A stretch of 64,000 nt of DNA from Fodinibius saliphilus (GTDB lineage Bacteria; Bacteroidota; Rhodothermia; Balneolales; Balneolaceae), in contig NZ_VAWF01000004.1 in NCBI RefSeq assembly GCF_005869845.1, forward strand, positions 310,001 to 374,000, read 5' to 3'. The translations under genes and the position numbers were made by a program. How positions within the stretch are numbered: the first letter of the stretch is position 1; the number at the start of each line of letters is the position of its first letter. The notes under the pieces are model-generated. The model saw only the letters and a list, made by a program, of their open reading frames with translations, was not told the DNA's origin and did no database searches. This document shows, piece after piece, positions 37,805-50,498 of the stretch.

Positions 37805-38824
37805 TTAGTTATTTTCAACACTAAGCGGACCACCGCCCCCGCTCGGATCGCAGTCGGTGCACGTAACCCTTACGCTACTGCTGCCATTTCGCTGGGACCC
37901 GTCACTGACATCAACGCGAATATCCAGTGTGTAGCCGTCAAAATCATACATTTGAGTAGAATAGGAGTCTGTATAGCTGACCGGCCCATCCCACTGGTTG
38001 TTCGTATCATCCGAGCGGTAGTACCACTCGTAGGAGTAGTTGCCGTCTCCGTCGGACACGGAGGCTGACCAGGTGCCCTGCTGGCCTTTCGACAGCGAGC
38101 TAGGGCCACTAATTGTAACCTCAAGTGGAGGAGGACCATATAAATTTTGAATGCCATCTATATCATCTTGAGAAAGGTAACGATGAGAACCATCATAGTA
38201 AGCATACATTAATGAGCCTTGAACCTGCGAATGGCCTAAACCCAATGAATGACCTAATTCATGAGCTGCTACAGTTGTTAAATCCATTGGTTGACTGGAG
38301 CTTGATCTCTCTGAAAGCGTCCATGTTTCAGCATCGTCGAAATGGGAATCACCGGCATAAGTACCATTCGGGGGTGGATAAAAAGCATGAGCTAATACGC
38401 CCCCTCGACCGTCAAATGCAGAACCATCTCCATGACTTCCTGTTGCCCATTTAATAATTATATCAACTTGAGAAGCGGAACTAACCTCCCTAAATGTTAA
38501 ACCAGATACCTCTTCCCATAAATCTGTGGCATCTGCAATTGCTTGTTGTTCTTGATTTCCTGAGATATCTCCCGTTCCATTTGAAAAATAATAAGTTAGA
38601 TTTTTGTGGTTCCACTTCCTTCCCTCCGCTACATAATCAGCACCATCAGGCAAATCGTCATAACGAACGGAAGTTGAAGATTCGGTAGTTGTCTTTTCCG
38701 TTTCTTTATTACTGTTAAAATTTGGAATGTTTCCCGATTGAGTCGGAGAAAAACTATTTTGACCGCAAGAGAAAGAAAAAACAGCTGCTAAAAATACTAT
38801 ACTTACCTTCTTGATATATTTCAT
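37805..38824 (-). CDS. Matrixin-type (M10A-like) zinc metalloprotease lipoprotein with C-terminal Ig-like domain
   Basis: The 339-residue protein has a lipoprotein signal (Cys20 in FSFSC), a Ser/Thr-rich linker, and a matrixin catalytic domain (about 68-230). The zinc motif HELGHSLGLGH is complete (188-198, H188, E189, H192, H198), with a Met-turn at SLMY (M206) and a structural metal site (HGDG, AHAFYP, HFDD). There is no cysteine-switch propeptide. Residues 232-325 form an Ig-like domain whose DNA is much richer in GC than the catalytic part (68% against 40% in two 60-base counts), which suggests a mosaic gene. Likely a surface or periplasmic protease. Confidence 0.88.
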   Translation of the reverse strand: MKYIKKVSIVFLAAVFSFSCGQNSFSPTQSGNIPNFNSNKETEKTTTESSTSVRYDDLPDGADYVAEGRKWNHKNLTYYFSNGTGDISGNQEQQAIADATDLWEEVSGLTFREVSSASQVDIIIKWATGSHGDGSAFDGRGGVLAHAFYPPPNGTYAGDSHFDDAETWTLSERSSSSQPMDLTTVAAHELGHSLGLGHSQVQGSLMYAYYDGSHRYLSQDDIDGIQNLYGPPPLEVTISGPSSLSKGQQGTWSASVSDGDGNYSYEWYYRSDDTNNQWDGPVSYTDSYSTQMYDFDGYTLDIRVDVSDGSQRNGSSSVRVTCTDCDPSGGGGPLSVENN

Positions 38825-43596: not shown

Positions 43597-45540
43597 TTAC
43601 TCTATTACCACATTCGGACGAAGCTTCTGTAATGTTTTTGGCCCAATACCCCTAATATTCTGTAACTGATCGATATCAATAAATTGTCCGTGCTTTTTTC
43701 TATATGTAACTATTCTCTTGGCATAGGCCGGTCCAACACCCGGCAATAGATCTAATAAGGCCTCGTCAGCTGTATTAATATTTATTGGAAAGGCATCAGA
43801 TGGCTTTGCTTGTAGGCCCACTATCTTTGCACGCAAATATCTTTTACCGACCTTTTCCGATTGCTTCCAGATCCCCTTTTTCTTCTTCTTTGCCTCTTTC
43901 ACATACTTTTTAAAGGCATTAACAGAATCAGGATGTTGAACCAAAAAGTTTGAAAAATCACCCAAGCCTCGCCGTAACATTCTTTTATTTAGGGATATCG
44001 TTTTATCATGGTTTTTAAGCGTTATATAAGCATAAAATGCGCCATAACGTGTATTGGGGACCTCTCTGGTTGGTCCCTGTAACCTCACTTTTTTTCCTGA
44101 TATCAAATTGCGCATATATTCTGCAGCTTCAGCTGAATAATACTCTGAGGAGTCACGGCCTGCATATAGGCGTGGCACATCAACCCCTAATAATCGGACG
44201 TTATATTGAAAGCCGGGAGCTATTTCTACTGCGAATTGGCTACCGTCACTCACCTCCTTAACAGTATACCATTTCTCACTATCAAGAGGGGGAGAAGGAA
44301 TGGGCGCTTTGCCCTGCGCTCTTCTTATTACCCCACAAAAGTCTTGATAATACTGATTGGTAATATAATCCGAATGGATAATCAACAGATTCTCATCATT
44401 ATTAACTTCTGCATTTTTTGAGAAGTTATAAGAACCAGCAATCGTTATTCCTTGGTCTGTAGAATCAGGATGATTAGCATCCACTAGCATCACTTTATGA
44501 TGCAACTTTCTCATCTCATTTGCAGGTAAAATTAATCGATTAGAAAGCTTAGCCTCTCGTGAAGCCCAAATATCCCCTTTACTTTTATAACGATAATAAA
44601 ACATAGGATCTATAGCTCCATTGAGCGATATTTCACCAGTTGCAGACCTCTTCCAAATTGTTCTGCTTAATGGTATAAAGGGAGTGATGGCAAAAGCTTG
44701 GAATACAACATCATGTTGTGACTCTTCTCGGATAACTTCTACCAAGCGTTTCATTATACTGGGCTTTGTACCATCGCGATTTATCGGAGAAAAGAAAACC
44801 TCAACCTTTGTACCACCTACATAGTAGTAATGATTGCTAACCTCTTTTTTATCTTTATGGAACAGTGCCCGATCAGGGTTAGGTAAATTATCGTCTCCGC
44901 CCCACATCTGTTCAAACTCTTGAAGATACGCTTCCGCAATACCACTATCCTTGATAATGATTGTATTATTGGTATTGTATACACCTGTGTATGTCATATT
45001 AGTAGATCCTGTCCAAACGACATCATCTTGTTTTGAACTACTTTTAGCATCTATTACAGCAAATTTATGATGCATATCAGCTCCGGAATTGGTAAGTGAG
45101 TAATCGGCAATTCCCCCATCAGCGTTATATACATCACCATCATCATCTATTGAACTGATATCCGCTTCTCTCAAAACAGCCCACATCGTTGAATCAATTT
45201 CTTTTGCATCGGTTCGGTTGTAGTTATCGGTGACAACCCTGACTCGCACACCTCGTTGTTTTGCTTCCGCCAACGCCTCTCCAATACGGATATGCTCCAG
45301 ATCGTAAATAGCAAGATCGACACTATGTTTAGCAGAACCTATAAGTGACTCTAATGTACCCACTAAGTCAACATTACTGTTACTCATATTAGCCGGTTGT
45401 GCCACTGAGTAATCAGCAGGCATATTAAAATACACCTTTATCCATTCTACATTGCTGGTATCGGAGTGCACTGTTTGAGTATGCCCACATAAAGAAACTA
45501 CCAGAAATAGAAGTAGCAATGATAATTGCCTAAAAATCAT
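43597..45540 (-). CDS. Exported phospholipase D-like / SNase-like / helix-hairpin-helix fusion protein
   Basis: The 647-residue protein has a signal peptide (about 1-21). Two PLD domains carry full HKD motifs: H157-K159-D164 with GSTN, and H347-K349-D354 with GSYN, so this part should cut phosphodiesters. An SNase-like domain (422-562) keeps R449 and D454 but has Ser434 for D21, Arg457 for the general base E43 and Ala501 for R87 (S. aureus numbering), so it is probably inactive. The C-terminus (585-645) is a ComEA-type double helix-hairpin-helix (LPGVGPAYAKRI, IRGIGPKTLQKL) that should bind DNA. Likely a secreted or periplasmic DNA-processing nuclease. Confidence 0.85.
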   Translation of the reverse strand: MIFRQLSLLLLFLVVSLCGHTQTVHSDTSNVEWIKVYFNMPADYSVAQPANMSNSNVDLVGTLESLIGSAKHSVDLAIYDLEHIRIGEALAEAKQRGVRVRVVTDNYNRTDAKEIDSTMWAVLREADISSIDDDGDVYNADGGIADYSLTNSGADMHHKFAVIDAKSSSKQDDVVWTGSTNMTYTGVYNTNNTIIIKDSGIAEAYLQEFEQMWGGDDNLPNPDRALFHKDKKEVSNHYYYVGGTKVEVFFSPINRDGTKPSIMKRLVEVIREESQHDVVFQAFAITPFIPLSRTIWKRSATGEISLNGAIDPMFYYRYKSKGDIWASREAKLSNRLILPANEMRKLHHKVMLVDANHPDSTDQGITIAGSYNFSKNAEVNNDENLLIIHSDYITNQYYQDFCGVIRRAQGKAPIPSPPLDSEKWYTVKEVSDGSQFAVEIAPGFQYNVRLLGVDVPRLYAGRDSSEYYSAEAAEYMRNLISGKKVRLQGPTREVPNTRYGAFYAYITLKNHDKTISLNKRMLRRGLGDFSNFLVQHPDSVNAFKKYVKEAKKKKKGIWKQSEKVGKRYLRAKIVGLQAKPSDAFPININTADEALLDLLPGVGPAYAKRIVTYRKKHGQFIDIDQLQNIRGIGPKTLQKLRPNVVIE

Positions 45541-45545
45541 TGAAA

Positions 45546-45577
45546 TTGTTTTTCATCTATAAATTGTAGTATTTTTG
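45546..45577 (+). promoter_or_regulatory. Bacteroidota-type promoter upstream of ftsB
   Basis: TTG (45546-45548), 21 bases, then TATTTTTG (45570-45577), an exact TAnnTTTG with accepted spacing (17-23). Transcription would begin near 45583, 40 bases before the ATG at 45623. This also argues against translation from the earlier ATG at 45575. Confidence 0.55.
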
Positions 45578-45622
45578 CAGCGTAAATGTACGATAATAAC
45601 AGGCCATTTAGCAATTACATCA

Positions 45623-45928
45623 ATGAACCTTCAGCTATTAAATCCATTACGCTGGCGCAAGTCGTTTCTCGCTCTCATTTTGGGAGGTTTTTTGCTTATC
45701 TGGTTTACATTTATCGATACCTATAGTATATGGACTCGAGTCGAGCTAAATCAACGAAAAAGCGAGCTTCAAGAAAAAAAACAAGAACTTAGAAAGGAAA
45801 CAGCTATCCTAAAGAAAAAAATAGAAAAGCTGAAAACAGACCCTTTTCTACTTGAACGTATTGCTCGTGAAGAATATGGTATGAAAAGAGAAGGAGAGTA
45901 CATTTATAAAATCAAAGAAGTTGATTAG
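45623..45928 (+). CDS. ftsB: FtsB/DivIC-type septum formation initiator
   Basis: This is a bitopic division protein that joins the FtsL/FtsQ complex. From the ATG at 45623 it has 101 residues: a short cytoplasmic end (MNLQLLNPLRWRK), one membrane helix (LALILGGFLLIWFTF), a periplasmic coiled coil (LNQRKSELQEKKQELRKETA) and the conserved tail FLLERIAREEYGMKREGEY, the DivIC family signature. I prefer this start to the ATG at 45575 because of the promoter at 45546-45577. It is followed by the lptD-like gene. Confidence 0.88.
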   Translation: MNLQLLNPLRWRKSFLALILGGFLLIWFTFIDTYSIWTRVELNQRKSELQEKKQELRKETAILKKKIEKLKTDPFLLERIAREEYGMKREGEYIYKIKEVD

Positions 45929-46050
45929 TTATTACTGTTACATCTTCTTTCCCCTTCACTTCTTAATTGTTCTACCTTATACTATAGCCATCTTATTCGT
46001 GTTAATAATACTCCACATTTTTTAAAACCCTTTTTAGCAACAGTATCTAC

Positions 46051-48777
46051 ATGAATAGAACTGCTACATACAGTGCTTTTTATTCGGCTTTGTTGCTGTT
46101 GCTACTATTAGGATTCTCCTCTTCATTGATAGCCCAGGTTAACCGCCCCCCTATACAAGAAAGACAAACGACTCAACCAGATACAACGAAGCAATCAGCA
46201 CGTACGGGTAGTTCACAAGCTCAACAACAAGAGGGCCAAATTAACTTTGAAGCTAGCGACTCACTGGTTTTTAAAAATAAAAAAAACCGCATAGCCACAC
46301 TCTATGGATCCTCATCGGTGGTGCACAATTCAGGTGAACTGCAGTCCGGCAAAATATCAATGAATCTAGACAGCTCTCTTGTAAGTGCTAATACGCAAAC
46401 ACCACAAGACACCCTTTCTCAGCCGGTATTAATTCGCGAAAATGATCGAGTACGGAGCAATAAAATAGATTTCAACTATAAAACTGAGAAAGGACGATTT
46501 GAAGTTGCTCGTGTTGAAGTGCAAGATGGTAACTTAATAGGTACAAAAGTTAAAAATACTGGCCGTCATGTGGTCTTCCTTGAAGATGCAATTTATTCCA
46601 CATGCCAATTAGATCATCCCCACTATTACATCCAGGCAAAACGAATGAAAGTGGTAGATCGAGAAAAGATATTTTTTGAGCAAGCTCGTCTCTTTATTCT
46701 CGATATACCATACCCATTGGTATTTCCCTTTGGCTATCTGCCCGGAAAATTCGACAAAAAACAATCGGGCATTCTTGAACCCACGTATGCCTACCAAAAC
46801 AGACAAAATCGGGGTATTGGGCTACAAAACCTAGGCTGGTTTCAATACTTTAATGATTACCTAACAGGACAAGCCTCCTTTGATATCTTTACTTCTGGTG
46901 ATTTCTTTGTTGATAGCCGAGTACGGTACCGCATTCGAAATAAATTAAGTGGCAATGCCCAGATTGGATATTCACGAAATAACAGCGGCCTTGAGCCATC
47001 TGACCCAGACTTTAGTTCCAGAGTTGCTAAAGAAATTCAGATTAGTCATAACCAAGATTTTTCGCCCTATGCCAGCTTTAACTCCAGTATTCATCTGCGC
47101 ACGGAAAACTTTAATAAAATAAATGCTAATGATCCTACTGCAATAGCAGAAACTGATGCCAGCTCTAGTATCAACTATAAATATAGACATCCCGAAAGTC
47201 TTTATTCACTAAATGCTTCTATTCGACAGAATCAAAACTTTGCTACTAATACGACAAACATTACCGGACCGGAGTTAAACTTCAGCTTAAAGCGACTTTC
47301 ACCTTTTAAAAATGAAGAAACAACGGGAGATGAGGATAAATGGTATGAATCTATCTCCGTTAATTACAGCAATTCTTTTAATTCCAAATTCCGATACAAC
47401 CCTATAGATGCCGATTCAGCCCGTTATAATTGGTTCGATGCCCTAAAAGCTCCTTCAATATATCGTGAAGCCACAGGGAAGTCTGATCACTACCGTTTTG
47501 GATTCAAACAAAATGCCGGTATAAGCATGAACCAGCTGTTGCCCAGTCGTTTTTTGAATACGAGCTTAAACTTTCGTTATAACGACTATTGGTATCCTAC
47601 AACTACACGAAAAACCTTCAACAGTGATTCGGCTGAAGTGGTAGAACAACAAGTTCGAGGGCTTACATCAGCGCATGAATTCAATATGAGTCTCAATTTC
47701 TCGACACGAATTTATGGGTTAATGAATCTCAGATTGGGAAACCTCACAAGCTTCAGACATACCCTGAAACCTTCTATTGGGTTTAGCTACCAACCGGATT
47801 TTAGTAAAGATCTTTGGGGCTATTATAGAACAGTACAAACAGATACTGTAAGCCAACCCGGCCAACCCGTACCCACCCAACGGTATTCAATATTTGAAAA
47901 TGAAATATTCGGAGGGCCCGGAAGAGGCGAACAACAACAGTTAAATTTCAGACTCGGAAATGTATTTGAAGCTAAATCTGTGAAGCGTGACTCTACCGGA
48001 GAAAAAAAGGAAAATGTAATTAGTCTTATAGACCAACTAGACTTTAGATCAAGCTATAATTTTGCAGCTGACAGCCTAAAACTATCGGATTTAAACTCTA
48101 GCCTCAGAGCAAAAATATTACCTGGCATGAATATTAATGCCAGTGCTAACTTTAATTTTTATAAACGCAATTCTGAAGGCCGTAAGATTGATAAGTTTCT
48201 TATCACCAACTCAAAAAAAATGCTTGAACTCACTCGATTTCAAGTTAGCACCAGTTATTCAGTGCAGCTCGGTGAGAAAGGGTTTCAGCCTAATAACAAA
48301 CCGCATTATCCGGCTAACTACGACCCACTAAACCAAAGTATCTTCCGGCCTGTAGATCCCCATTTTAATACACAACCCATTCAGGATTTTAAGTCACCTT
48401 TTTCATTTTCAATTAACTTCAGTTATAACTGGCGTTTAAACCCTACGGGCAAAAACAATAAAAGCGCGACGATAAATGCCAGGAATATAAACTTAAAACT
48501 TACTCCCAAATGGGACTTTCGTACCCAAATAGGATATGACTTCGTTCGTAAGGAACTCACTCCTTCCCAATTTTCGTTAAACAGAAAGCTACATTGCTGG
48601 GACCTCTCTTTTACCATGAACCCTTTTGGAGAAAGAAAGTACTATTTCTTTTCCTTGCGAATTAATGCCAGTCGCCTGCAGGGCATCATCCAAAAGCTCC
48701 CGGGACTCAATAACCTTGAGAGGGGATCTCGTGGTACCGGTAGGTCACCACGCGGCTTTGGTGGTGGAAATTTTTAA
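46051..48777 (+). CDS. LptD-like LPS-assembly outer-membrane protein
   Basis: LptD puts lipopolysaccharide into the outer leaflet of the outer membrane. The 908-residue protein has a signal peptide (about 1-28), a Gln/Thr-rich linker and an OstA-like beta-jellyroll (about 65-200; SDSLVFKNKKNRIATLYGSSSV, LIGTKVKNTGRHVVFLEDAIYST). A long barrel follows with the LptD signature IPYPLVFPFGYLPGK, SGILEPTY. The tail is Gly/Arg-rich. It is the divergent Bacteroidota-type LptD. The last 4 bases overlap the convergent ribE gene. Confidence 0.85.
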   Translation: MNRTATYSAFYSALLLLLLLGFSSSLIAQVNRPPIQERQTTQPDTTKQSARTGSSQAQQQEGQINFEASDSLVFKNKKNRIATLYGSSSVVHNSGELQSGKISMNLDSSLVSANTQTPQDTLSQPVLIRENDRVRSNKIDFNYKTEKGRFEVARVEVQDGNLIGTKVKNTGRHVVFLEDAIYSTCQLDHPHYYIQAKRMKVVDREKIFFEQARLFILDIPYPLVFPFGYLPGKFDKKQSGILEPTYAYQNRQNRGIGLQNLGWFQYFNDYLTGQASFDIFTSGDFFVDSRVRYRIRNKLSGNAQIGYSRNNSGLEPSDPDFSSRVAKEIQISHNQDFSPYASFNSSIHLRTENFNKINANDPTAIAETDASSSINYKYRHPESLYSLNASIRQNQNFATNTTNITGPELNFSLKRLSPFKNEETTGDEDKWYESISVNYSNSFNSKFRYNPIDADSARYNWFDALKAPSIYREATGKSDHYRFGFKQNAGISMNQLLPSRFLNTSLNFRYNDYWYPTTTRKTFNSDSAEVVEQQVRGLTSAHEFNMSLNFSTRIYGLMNLRLGNLTSFRHTLKPSIGFSYQPDFSKDLWGYYRTVQTDTVSQPGQPVPTQRYSIFENEIFGGPGRGEQQQLNFRLGNVFEAKSVKRDSTGEKKENVISLIDQLDFRSSYNFAADSLKLSDLNSSLRAKILPGMNINASANFNFYKRNSEGRKIDKFLITNSKKMLELTRFQVSTSYSVQLGEKGFQPNNKPHYPANYDPLNQSIFRPVDPHFNTQPIQDFKSPFSFSINFSYNWRLNPTGKNNKSATINARNINLKLTPKWDFRTQIGYDFVRKELTPSQFSLNRKLHCWDLSFTMNPFGERKYYFFSLRINASRLQGIIQKLPGLNNLERGSRGTGRSPRGFGGGNF

Positions 48778-49367
48778 GATTCGCGATTTTCGAGATACTT
48801 TAACACATATTTGCCAAGAATATCGAACTCCAGGTTTACCGTATCACCCACTTTTTTTGTGCACAGATTGGTATGTTCATAGGTGTAAGGAATTATCGCA
48901 ACACGGAAACTATTTTCCTGCTCATTAGCGACTGTCAAGCTAATACCATCTATGGAAATACTTCCTCGTCCTACAATTAACCCCGAATGCTCTTGGGGAT
49001 ATTCAATAGTAAAAAGCCAATCGGTACCTTCTTTCTTAATATCTGTTACTGTACCCGTTGCATCTACATGCCCCTGTACTATATGACCATCCAATAATTG
49101 GTCGAGACGCAAGGATCGCTCCAGGTTAACCAATGACTCCTTTTCCAAGTCCCCAATATTAGTTTTTCGAAGCGTCTCTTCTACACTTTGCACTGTAAAA
49201 GATACGTTGTCACAGCCTGTTACCGTATGACAAACACCATTAATACAGATACTTTGATCAATATCCAGCTTATCCGCGAAATCAGCTACAATAGTGATCT
49301 CTTTGCCGCCATCCAGGTTCGTTACCTGTTTTACATTACCAACTGATTTTATTATTCCTGTAAACAT
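48774..49367 (-). CDS. ribE: Riboflavin synthase, alpha subunit
   Basis: The enzyme dismutates 6,7-dimethyl-8-ribityllumazine to riboflavin. The 197-residue protein has two lumazine-binding repeats, starts MFTGIIKSVGNV, and shows SICINGVCHTVTGCD in repeat 1 and SISIDGISLTVAN in repeat 2. It is complete. The ribD gene lies 15 bases upstream on the same strand. Its stop codon overlaps the end of the lptD-like gene by 4 bases. Confidence 0.95.
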   Translation of the reverse strand: MFTGIIKSVGNVKQVTNLDGGKEITIVADFADKLDIDQSICINGVCHTVTGCDNVSFTVQSVEETLRKTNIGDLEKESLVNLERSLRLDQLLDGHIVQGHVDATGTVTDIKKEGTDWLFTIEYPQEHSGLIVGRGSISIDGISLTVANEQENSFRVAIIPYTYEHTNLCTKKVGDTVNLEFDILGKYVLKYLENRES

Positions 49368-49382
49368 ATTGCTATCTGAAAA

Positions 49383-50498
49383 TTAAAAATAACCGCTAAA
49401 TAAGATATCATCACCGACCTGTTTCCACTCCACTTCCCGAAACTCCATTATCTCCGACATATGATTTATCCCCACGCCCAAAACTGATCTTGTGCCTCCC
49501 CCCAGCATTTTGGGAGCAATAAAACATTCAACTTTATCAACCAAGTTTTCACGAAGTAAAGCCGAAGCCAAACTCTGCCCTGCTTCTACTAAAATTGAGG
49601 TAATCGGTTGTTTCCCCAGTTCTTTTAAAGCATCAGCCAAATTGGTATGCCCATTTTTTTCATCTACCAGCAAAGTAGATCCACGAAAGTAGTCTGACTT
49701 TAACATATTAAGCATAGGATCAGCTTCTTCTCGGTACTTTTGCTCATTATGTGTAATTACAATTGTTTTTTCTTCATACTGATCGGTAAATAAATTTAGA
49801 TCATCAGGCAATTCCAATGGTCCGTCAATCACTACTCGCTTAGGTTGCCGCCCTTCTACATGCCGAACCGTAAGCCGGGGGTTATCCAACAAGGCGGTAT
49901 TTCTGCCAACCATTACGGCATCATACTTACTCCGCCATTTATGTACCAGAGCCCTTGAGTGCTGGCCGCTAATCCACTCAGAATCCCCATCCGGGGCGGC
50001 AATATACCCATCTAATGTTTGTGCAATCTTTAGCGCAACAAACGGTCGCCCCCATTTTTGGTGATGCAGAAAAAACTCATTCAACCTTTCTGCCTGCTCT
50101 TCCAATATACCAACCTTAACATCAATATCATGATCCCGGAGATATTCAATGCCTTTTCCTGCAACCTTGGGGGTGGGATCTTCCATAGCCACCACAACCC
50201 GACCTATCGGTAGCTCTGCTAATAACTCACAGCAGGGAGGAGTATTCCCATGATGGGCACAGGGCTCTAACGTTACATAAACAGTAGCTCCATCTAACAA
50301 CTCTTTATTTGAAACTGAATTTACCGCATTTCTCTCGGCATGAGCCTGTCCATATTGCTCGTGGATACCCTGTGCTATTTTCTCCCCCTCTGCCGATACA
50401 ATCACGCAACCGACCATGGGGTTGGGTGAGACGTAGCCCGCCCCCCTATCGGCAATTTCGAGGGCCAGACTCATCCATTTCTTATCTTCTTCGTTCAT
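49383..50498 (-). CDS. ribD: Bifunctional riboflavin biosynthesis deaminase/reductase
   Basis: RibD performs the deamination and reduction steps after GTP cyclohydrolase II. The 371-residue protein has an N-terminal cytidine-deaminase-like zinc domain: HAERNAV (53-59), LEPCAHHGNTPPCC (77-90, zinc ligands H53, C80, C89). From about residue 148 there is a reductase domain, with VALKIAQTLDGYIA and DSEWISG. It is complete, and upstream of ribE in a two-gene operon. I see no FMN riboswitch in the 151 bases before it. Confidence 0.95.
   Translation of the reverse strand: MNEEDKKWMSLALEIADRGAGYVSPNPMVGCVIVSAEGEKIAQGIHEQYGQAHAERNAVNSVSNKELLDGATVYVTLEPCAHHGNTPPCCELLAELPIGRVVVAMEDPTPKVAGKGIEYLRDHDIDVKVGILEEQAERLNEFFLHHQKWGRPFVALKIAQTLDGYIAAPDGDSEWISGQHSRALVHKWRSKYDAVMVGRNTALLDNPRLTVRHVEGRQPKRVVIDGPLELPDDLNLFTDQYEEKTIVITHNEQKYREEADPMLNMLKSDYFRGSTLLVDEKNGHTNLADALKELGKQPITSILVEAGQSLASALLRENLVDKVECFIAPKMLGGGTRSVLGVGINHMSEIMEFREVEWKQVGDDILFSGYF

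Follow-up and report, generated by a model that had tools for sequence, protein, structure and literature searches.

The window, by which we mean the whole 64,000-nucleotide stretch of Fodinibius saliphilus DNA analysed here, encodes at positions 43597 to 45540 of the minus strand a 647-aa, putatively exported protein (ATG at 45540, stop at 43597) that combines a phospholipase D (PLD) core, a staphylococcal nuclease (SNase)-like domain and a ComEA-type double helix-hairpin-helix (HhH)2 tail. These coordinates agree with the original prediction, to which the strand is added. On the same strand, a Sec signal peptide-like leader of approximately residues 1 to 24 (45469 to 45540) is followed by the PLD core (residues 31 to 410, 44311 to 45450), a single chain of two PLDc_2 halves, by an SNase-fold (OB) domain with degenerated catalytic residues (residues 424 to 562, 43855 to 44271) and by the (HhH)2 tail (residues 583 to 647, 43600 to 43794). 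All three domains exceed their Pfam gathering scores, with PLDc_2 matching in two stretches (E 8.6e-33, 113 bits versus a cut-off of 27), SNase at residues 447 to 560 (E 6.1e-15, 56 bits versus 21) and HHH_3 at residues 585 to 644 (E 4.6e-21, 75 bits versus 27). Since the architecture recurs in 23 of 58 relatives, the window genome included, the fusion is a genuine gene and no chance open reading frame. For family comparisons, we used 39 distinct rows, left after near-identical copies had been removed from a set of 55 retrieved copies plus the window protein (one row, L026, ends at a contig end). Mean pairwise identity across these rows is highest in the PLD core (60%) and the HhH tail (57%), followed by the SNase domain (47%) and the linkers (32 to 38%), and amounts to just 17% over residues 1 to 30. 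The whole-protein model has a mean pLDDT of 81.5. Within the window we found no tRNA and no Rfam match at the gathering score; promoter-like sites are uninformative (7 versus 9.0 expected), and there are 4 terminator-like sites versus 1.4 expected.

The PLD core is apparently intact as a phosphodiester-cutting enzyme, judging from its residues. The two complete HKD motifs that had been predicted, H157/K159/D164 (45049 to 45072) and H347/K349/D354 (44479 to 44502), are indeed present and invariant in 39/39 distinct members, so that the protein combines the two HxKxxxxD motifs with the fold by which the PLD superfamily is defined. Enzymes of this family bring both HKD motifs of a chain together in one metal-free active site, which works through a phospho-histidine intermediate. 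The predicted model of the core matches PLD3 (Z 31.3), phospholipase D (7e0m, Z 30.7) and F13 (Z 30.2) within 1.1 Z units, and the fold therefore leaves the substrate, and with it the choice between nuclease and lipase, undecided. By sequence profile, the closest PDB relatives are MitoPLD, Nuc (1byr) and NucT (6ehi), with PLD3 and PLD4 absent from the 10 matches up to E 10 even though the fold is near-tied between PLD3 and other PLDs. The fusion has HKD chemistry in common with Nuc, NucT and the lysosomal PLD3 and PLD4, whose family is defined by 5'-3' exonuclease activity on ssDNA and ssRNA. It differs from NucT in score, reaching 42.7 bits against a cut-off of 297 for the NucT equivalog NF010492. 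To our knowledge, none of these four enzymes has an SNase domain or an (HhH)2 tail.

Exported PLD proteins homologous to the fusion core form a broad family in Bacteroidota (L027, L028, L081, L082, L064-L083); many of its members have T9SS tails, DUF5689 or fn3 parts occur in some, and two genomes (G037 and G043) hold both kinds of PLD protein. The T9SS-tailed members share a homologous core and export with the fusion, but have that tail and N-terminal additions of their own. When 43 PLD cores were placed in a tree (23 non-fusion rows plus 20 of the 39 fusions), the fusions came together in one group, supported at 100/100 and separate from the Bacteroidota proteins with T9SS tails; the T9SS label is here a loose motif, carried by 19 of the 23 non-fusion rows, and three rows without it sit near the fusion side with no firm support. 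Among 10 scanned proteins with a homologous or similar core, seven have a T9SS tail and three have DUF5689 (Pfam), one shows a weak OB-fold match below the cut-off, and neither SNase nor HHH_3 was found in any of the 10.

With respect to the SNase-like domain, the alignment confirms the three predicted losses, S434 for D21, R457 for E43 and A501 for R87, the latter two being read against Staphylococcus aureus nuclease and all three being seen in comparison with two stand-alone SNases in which D21, R35, D40, E43 and R87 are intact. Only R35 (R449) and D40 (D454) are thus retained in the window protein. Across the family, D21 and E43 are kept in 0/39 members, R87 in 14/39, R35 in 21/39 and D40 in 20/39; three of these five residues is the most that any member keeps, and the full catalytic set of active staphylococcal nuclease is absent from all 39, indicating that the loss is family-wide and no decay private to one genome. 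The fold itself is intact: modelled separately (pLDDT 82.5), the domain superposes on S. aureus nuclease with Z 18.2 and an rmsd of 2.3 over 132 aligned residues, and SND1 chains are among its Foldseek matches. The domain is under constraint, yet less conserved than the PLD and HhH parts. An Asp at the D19 position, G452, P456, S464 and G525 are invariant (39/39), and a hairpin with E439 (37/39), P442 (36/39), G443 (34/39) and F444 (35/39) is missing from the two stand-alone SNases in the alignment. Any SNase at all occurs in 24 of the 58 relatives, and 23 of these are the fusion genomes; a stand-alone SNase (L084) with all five catalytic residues occurs in one genome of the order (G046) that yielded no fusion. 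The net charge of the domain has a family median of −3 and is positive in 7/39 members, with the window protein (+11) representing the family maximum. The description of this domain as probably dead holds as far as the textbook residues are concerned, and the domain is presumably inactive. However, Caenorhabditis elegans TSN, in which most catalytic residues are likewise degenerated, is still a ribonuclease (PMC5900569), so that losing textbook residues is no proof of inactivity; by the same token, the accompanying statement that Tudor-SN keeps inactive SNase folds is right about degeneration but somewhat too strong on inactivity.

The ComEA-type tail was likewise recognized correctly, its best PDB match being ComE operon protein 1 (E 5.9e-13); the profile search also yields EEPD1 (9yi2), likewise a nuclease equipped with an HhH of this kind. 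The whole-protein ComEA model TIGR01259, which aligns to residues 576 to 645 only, falls short of its cut-off (61.9 bits versus 152.35). The G-I-G of the second hairpin is conserved in 38/38 rows with data, and G601 of the first hairpin in 33/38. The HhH part together with its linker has a median charge of +1 and is positive in 20/39 members, meaning that neither this tail nor the SNase domain is strongly basic family-wide and that strong backbone binding is not obvious. In the window genome, we observe one full-length match to the fusion and three more that hit the HhH part only, and comEC is also present, as is an independent ComEA-like protein whose N-terminal part includes a hydrophobic stretch. 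The same genome holds a long exported-looking protein (L003, G000:C1:1443976-1444161) in which an N-terminal HhH is followed by a part that appears, by eye, beta-rich and outer membrane-like.

The fusion is a conserved gene of Balneolales. In a set of 58 genomes (relatives plus its own), 25 match at E 1e-30, comprising 22 full-length fusions, one fusion truncated where a contig ends (in G057) and two proteins matched by PLD alone, and within the genus Fodinibius the fusion is present in 7 of 12 genomes. Of the carriers with a name, Fodinibius halophilus 2W32 is the closest, at 78% identity. A search of 395 genomes sampled from the phylum yields 77 with a match at E 1e-25, of which 33 have full-length fusions, all inside Balneolales, and 44 match in the PLD part alone. 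At class level, a profile of the SNase and HhH parts matches 218 of 244 genomes, mostly through HhH alone, among the matches listed, which extend down to weak HhH-only scores. The combined SNase and HhH part is present in 55 of the 244 among the same listed matches (counted by hand), again all in Balneolales, an order that makes up 128 of the 244 if 6 unmatched genomes absent from the list fall outside it, as the list order suggests. Spread beyond the phylum was covered by a species scan limited to short peptide patterns and by searches of phages and plasmids. The scan of 84,980 species returned 20 loci, of which 18 are fusions (17 with Balneolota names and one MAG), one is a cyanobacterial PLD-only protein and one is SNase-only. 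Carriers that have a name come from genera regarded as marine or halophilic. A phage origin was considered and rejected, as a tblastn search of 50,697 phage records found 14 with a match, the best 10 of which match the HhH part only, and so was a plasmid origin (72,556 records searched, 486 matching, none covering 80% of the query, with the best 15 of the 486 matching the PLD part). No relative was found among 158 pattern matches in the viral_contigs scan.

In all 18 fusion loci of the species scan, the fusion and divIC face each other in head-to-head orientation, and lptD lies further on (45575 to 50498 in the window, names by Pfam). ribD and ribE are nearby in 15 of the 18, one of the remaining three loci being short, and the transporter that adjoins the fusion in the window recurs in only 2/18. 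This conserved divIC/lptD neighbourhood points to vertical inheritance, and to neither a competence nor a defence cluster. A defence role was also tried and rejected: the NCBIfam model of the DISARM protein DrmC gives 34.6 bits versus a cut-off of 133, 13 PADLOC hits (best E 2.1e-9) are confined to the PLD or SNase parts, and the neighbours are housekeeping genes. Elsewhere in the window, positions 37805 to 38824 (minus strand) encode a Matrixin-type protease (Peptidase_M10, E 1.5e-51) with an N-terminus that appears leader-like by eye.

We infer export from the leaders, which in the 39 rows resemble the Sec type when read by eye (the start is uncertain in L018 and L024), in line with the predicted signal peptide; 3/39 carry a lipobox-like motif. 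A C-terminal Por_Secre_tail sorting domain, as expected of T9SS cargo, was not found up to E 1 (Pfam). According to the emended description of the genus, no Fodinibius species can hydrolyse DNA (PMC9909488). This is a genus-level statement that covers F. halophilus as a member species, and F. halophilus 2W32 encodes the fusion (L029), posing a contradiction between a conserved, exported nuclease-like gene and a genus described as non-hydrolysing for DNA. Together with the missing T9SS tail, the negative genus description favours a periplasmic enzyme, a specialist for ssDNA or RNA such as PLD3 and PLD4 are described to be (PMC8497607), or a gene that is silent on plates. The protein is probably periplasmic.

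The reading that we favour, with slightly better than even confidence, is that of an exported, probably periplasmic PLD-type nuclease, in which the SNase-like OB fold and the HhH tail hold nucleic acid. The PLD core would cut phosphodiesters through the single metal-free site and phospho-histidine chemistry of its two HKD motifs, the SNase fold, having lost its metal-ion and catalytic residues, would act as an OB-fold platform, and the C-terminal (HhH)2 would grip the DNA backbone. Both tail domains would prevent nucleic acid from leaving the enzyme, an effect that should count most where ionic strength is high. The substrates would probably be DNA or oligonucleotides that have reached the periplasm, single-stranded DNA or RNA included, and the cleavage products may serve nucleotide and phosphate recovery. 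The original proposal that one domain cuts and two hold thus stands as the best reading, though as one deduced from an intact cutter, a degenerated OB-fold SNase and a DNA-binding tail, together with two precedents; nuclease rather than lipase activity, and the purpose, are equally deduced. In Vibrio cholerae, the secreted nuclease Xds requires an OB fold for activity (PMC6746945), although Xds has an EEP catalytic domain and a lamin-tail domain, and its OB fold lies on the N-terminal side. The second precedent is DNaseTA, for which the study (PMC4777378) reports activity up to 4 M NaCl with a C-terminal ComEA-derived (HhH)2, and a raised salt tolerance of bovine DNaseI given such tails (to 4 M or ~1.6 M depending on the tail). 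As Fodinibius species grow at 3 to 25% NaCl (PMC9909488), the tail is perhaps a clamp for work in brine. The salt precedents are limited, since the benefit of the Bacillus subtilis ComEA tail ends at ~1.6 M NaCl and no fusion detectably cut a 16-bp substrate at 1.2 M or above (PMC4777378). The favoured reading is further weakened by the DNA-hydrolysis-negative genus, the tail domains that are not strongly basic, the lower conservation of the SNase domain and the near-ties in core fold.

A freely secreted DNase acting on environmental or biofilm DNA, as first proposed, would agree with the signal-like leader, but we consider it unlikely, as Fodinibius is described as DNA-hydrolysis negative (PMC9909488) while F. 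halophilus carries the gene, as 7 of the 10 scanned related-core proteins have the T9SS sorting tail that the fusion lacks, and as the chains terminate 0 to 11 residues past the P642 column in the 39 rows (one ending at a contig end). It is quite unlikely that the protein is instead a component of DNA uptake that degrades or trims competence-bound DNA in the periplasm. The ComEA-type tail and the presence of comEC and a separate ComEA-like protein in the same genome speak for this role, which the original prediction had also named; against it, the neighbours are divIC and lptD with no competence gene among them, and, among the matches listed, every one of the 55 class genomes that hold the fusion shows one or more additional HhH matches, and HhH without the SNase-HhH part occurs in 163 of the 189 others, indicating that ComEA-like proteins do not track the fusion.

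It appears very unlikely that the protein is a phospholipase D or cardiolipin hydrolase that acts on lipids and carries additions for binding nucleic acid: the near-tie of the core fold with 7e0m and F13 and the mitochondrial cardiolipin hydrolase chains among the best sequence matches point that way, but Nuc is an equally good sequence match, NucT is matched too, and a ComEA-type tail and an SNase fold would have no evident use in lipid hydrolysis. We regard as highly improbable a two-nuclease enzyme whose SNase domain is a weak or altered metal-dependent nuclease; the conserved D19-position Asp and E439 and the RNA cutting by mostly degenerated C. elegans TSN (PMC5900569) would suit such an enzyme, and the loss of D21 and E43 in 39/39 members and of R35, D40 and R87 in 18, 19 and 25 of 39 argues against it. 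Least probable, and put forward as speculation, is a PLD3/PLD4-like periplasmic single-strand exonuclease that would be tethered by its ComEA tail to incoming DNA and destroy the non-imported strand during transformation, with the SNase domain turned into a strand-holding OB clamp with its own hairpin (E439, PGF 442-444). DNA-hydrolysis-negative plates would fit such a single-strand exonuclease, and we know of no Gram-negative nuclease identified as destroying the strand that is not taken up.

Returning to the favoured nuclease with two holding domains, its closest parallel in design is found in the DNaseTA-type nucleases, which also join a catalytic nuclease domain to a C-terminal ComEA-type (HhH)2 in a salt-loving bacterium. 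Their catalytic domain is EEP/DNaseI-like, as opposed to PLD without any EEP hit (Pfam) in the fusion, which has an extra SNase-fold domain between core and tail. The Fig. 2 legend of that study (PMC4777378) lists PLDc_SF among the domains occurring with this HhH domain. In searches of one open-access library, we found no description of a PLD, SNase and HhH chain, nor of a degenerated SNase between PLD and HhH. Because relatives within one order keep the design and PLD together with this HhH is already on record in the legend (PMC4777378), the fusion is a new combination of known parts and no new kind of system. It is one more example of a testable design rule, in which differing nuclease cores share a ComEA-type tail, perhaps for working in salt. 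Furthermore, a whole SNase domain has been retained across the order despite its lost catalytic residues, so that the role of a pseudo-SNase for its enzyme partner can be asked directly.
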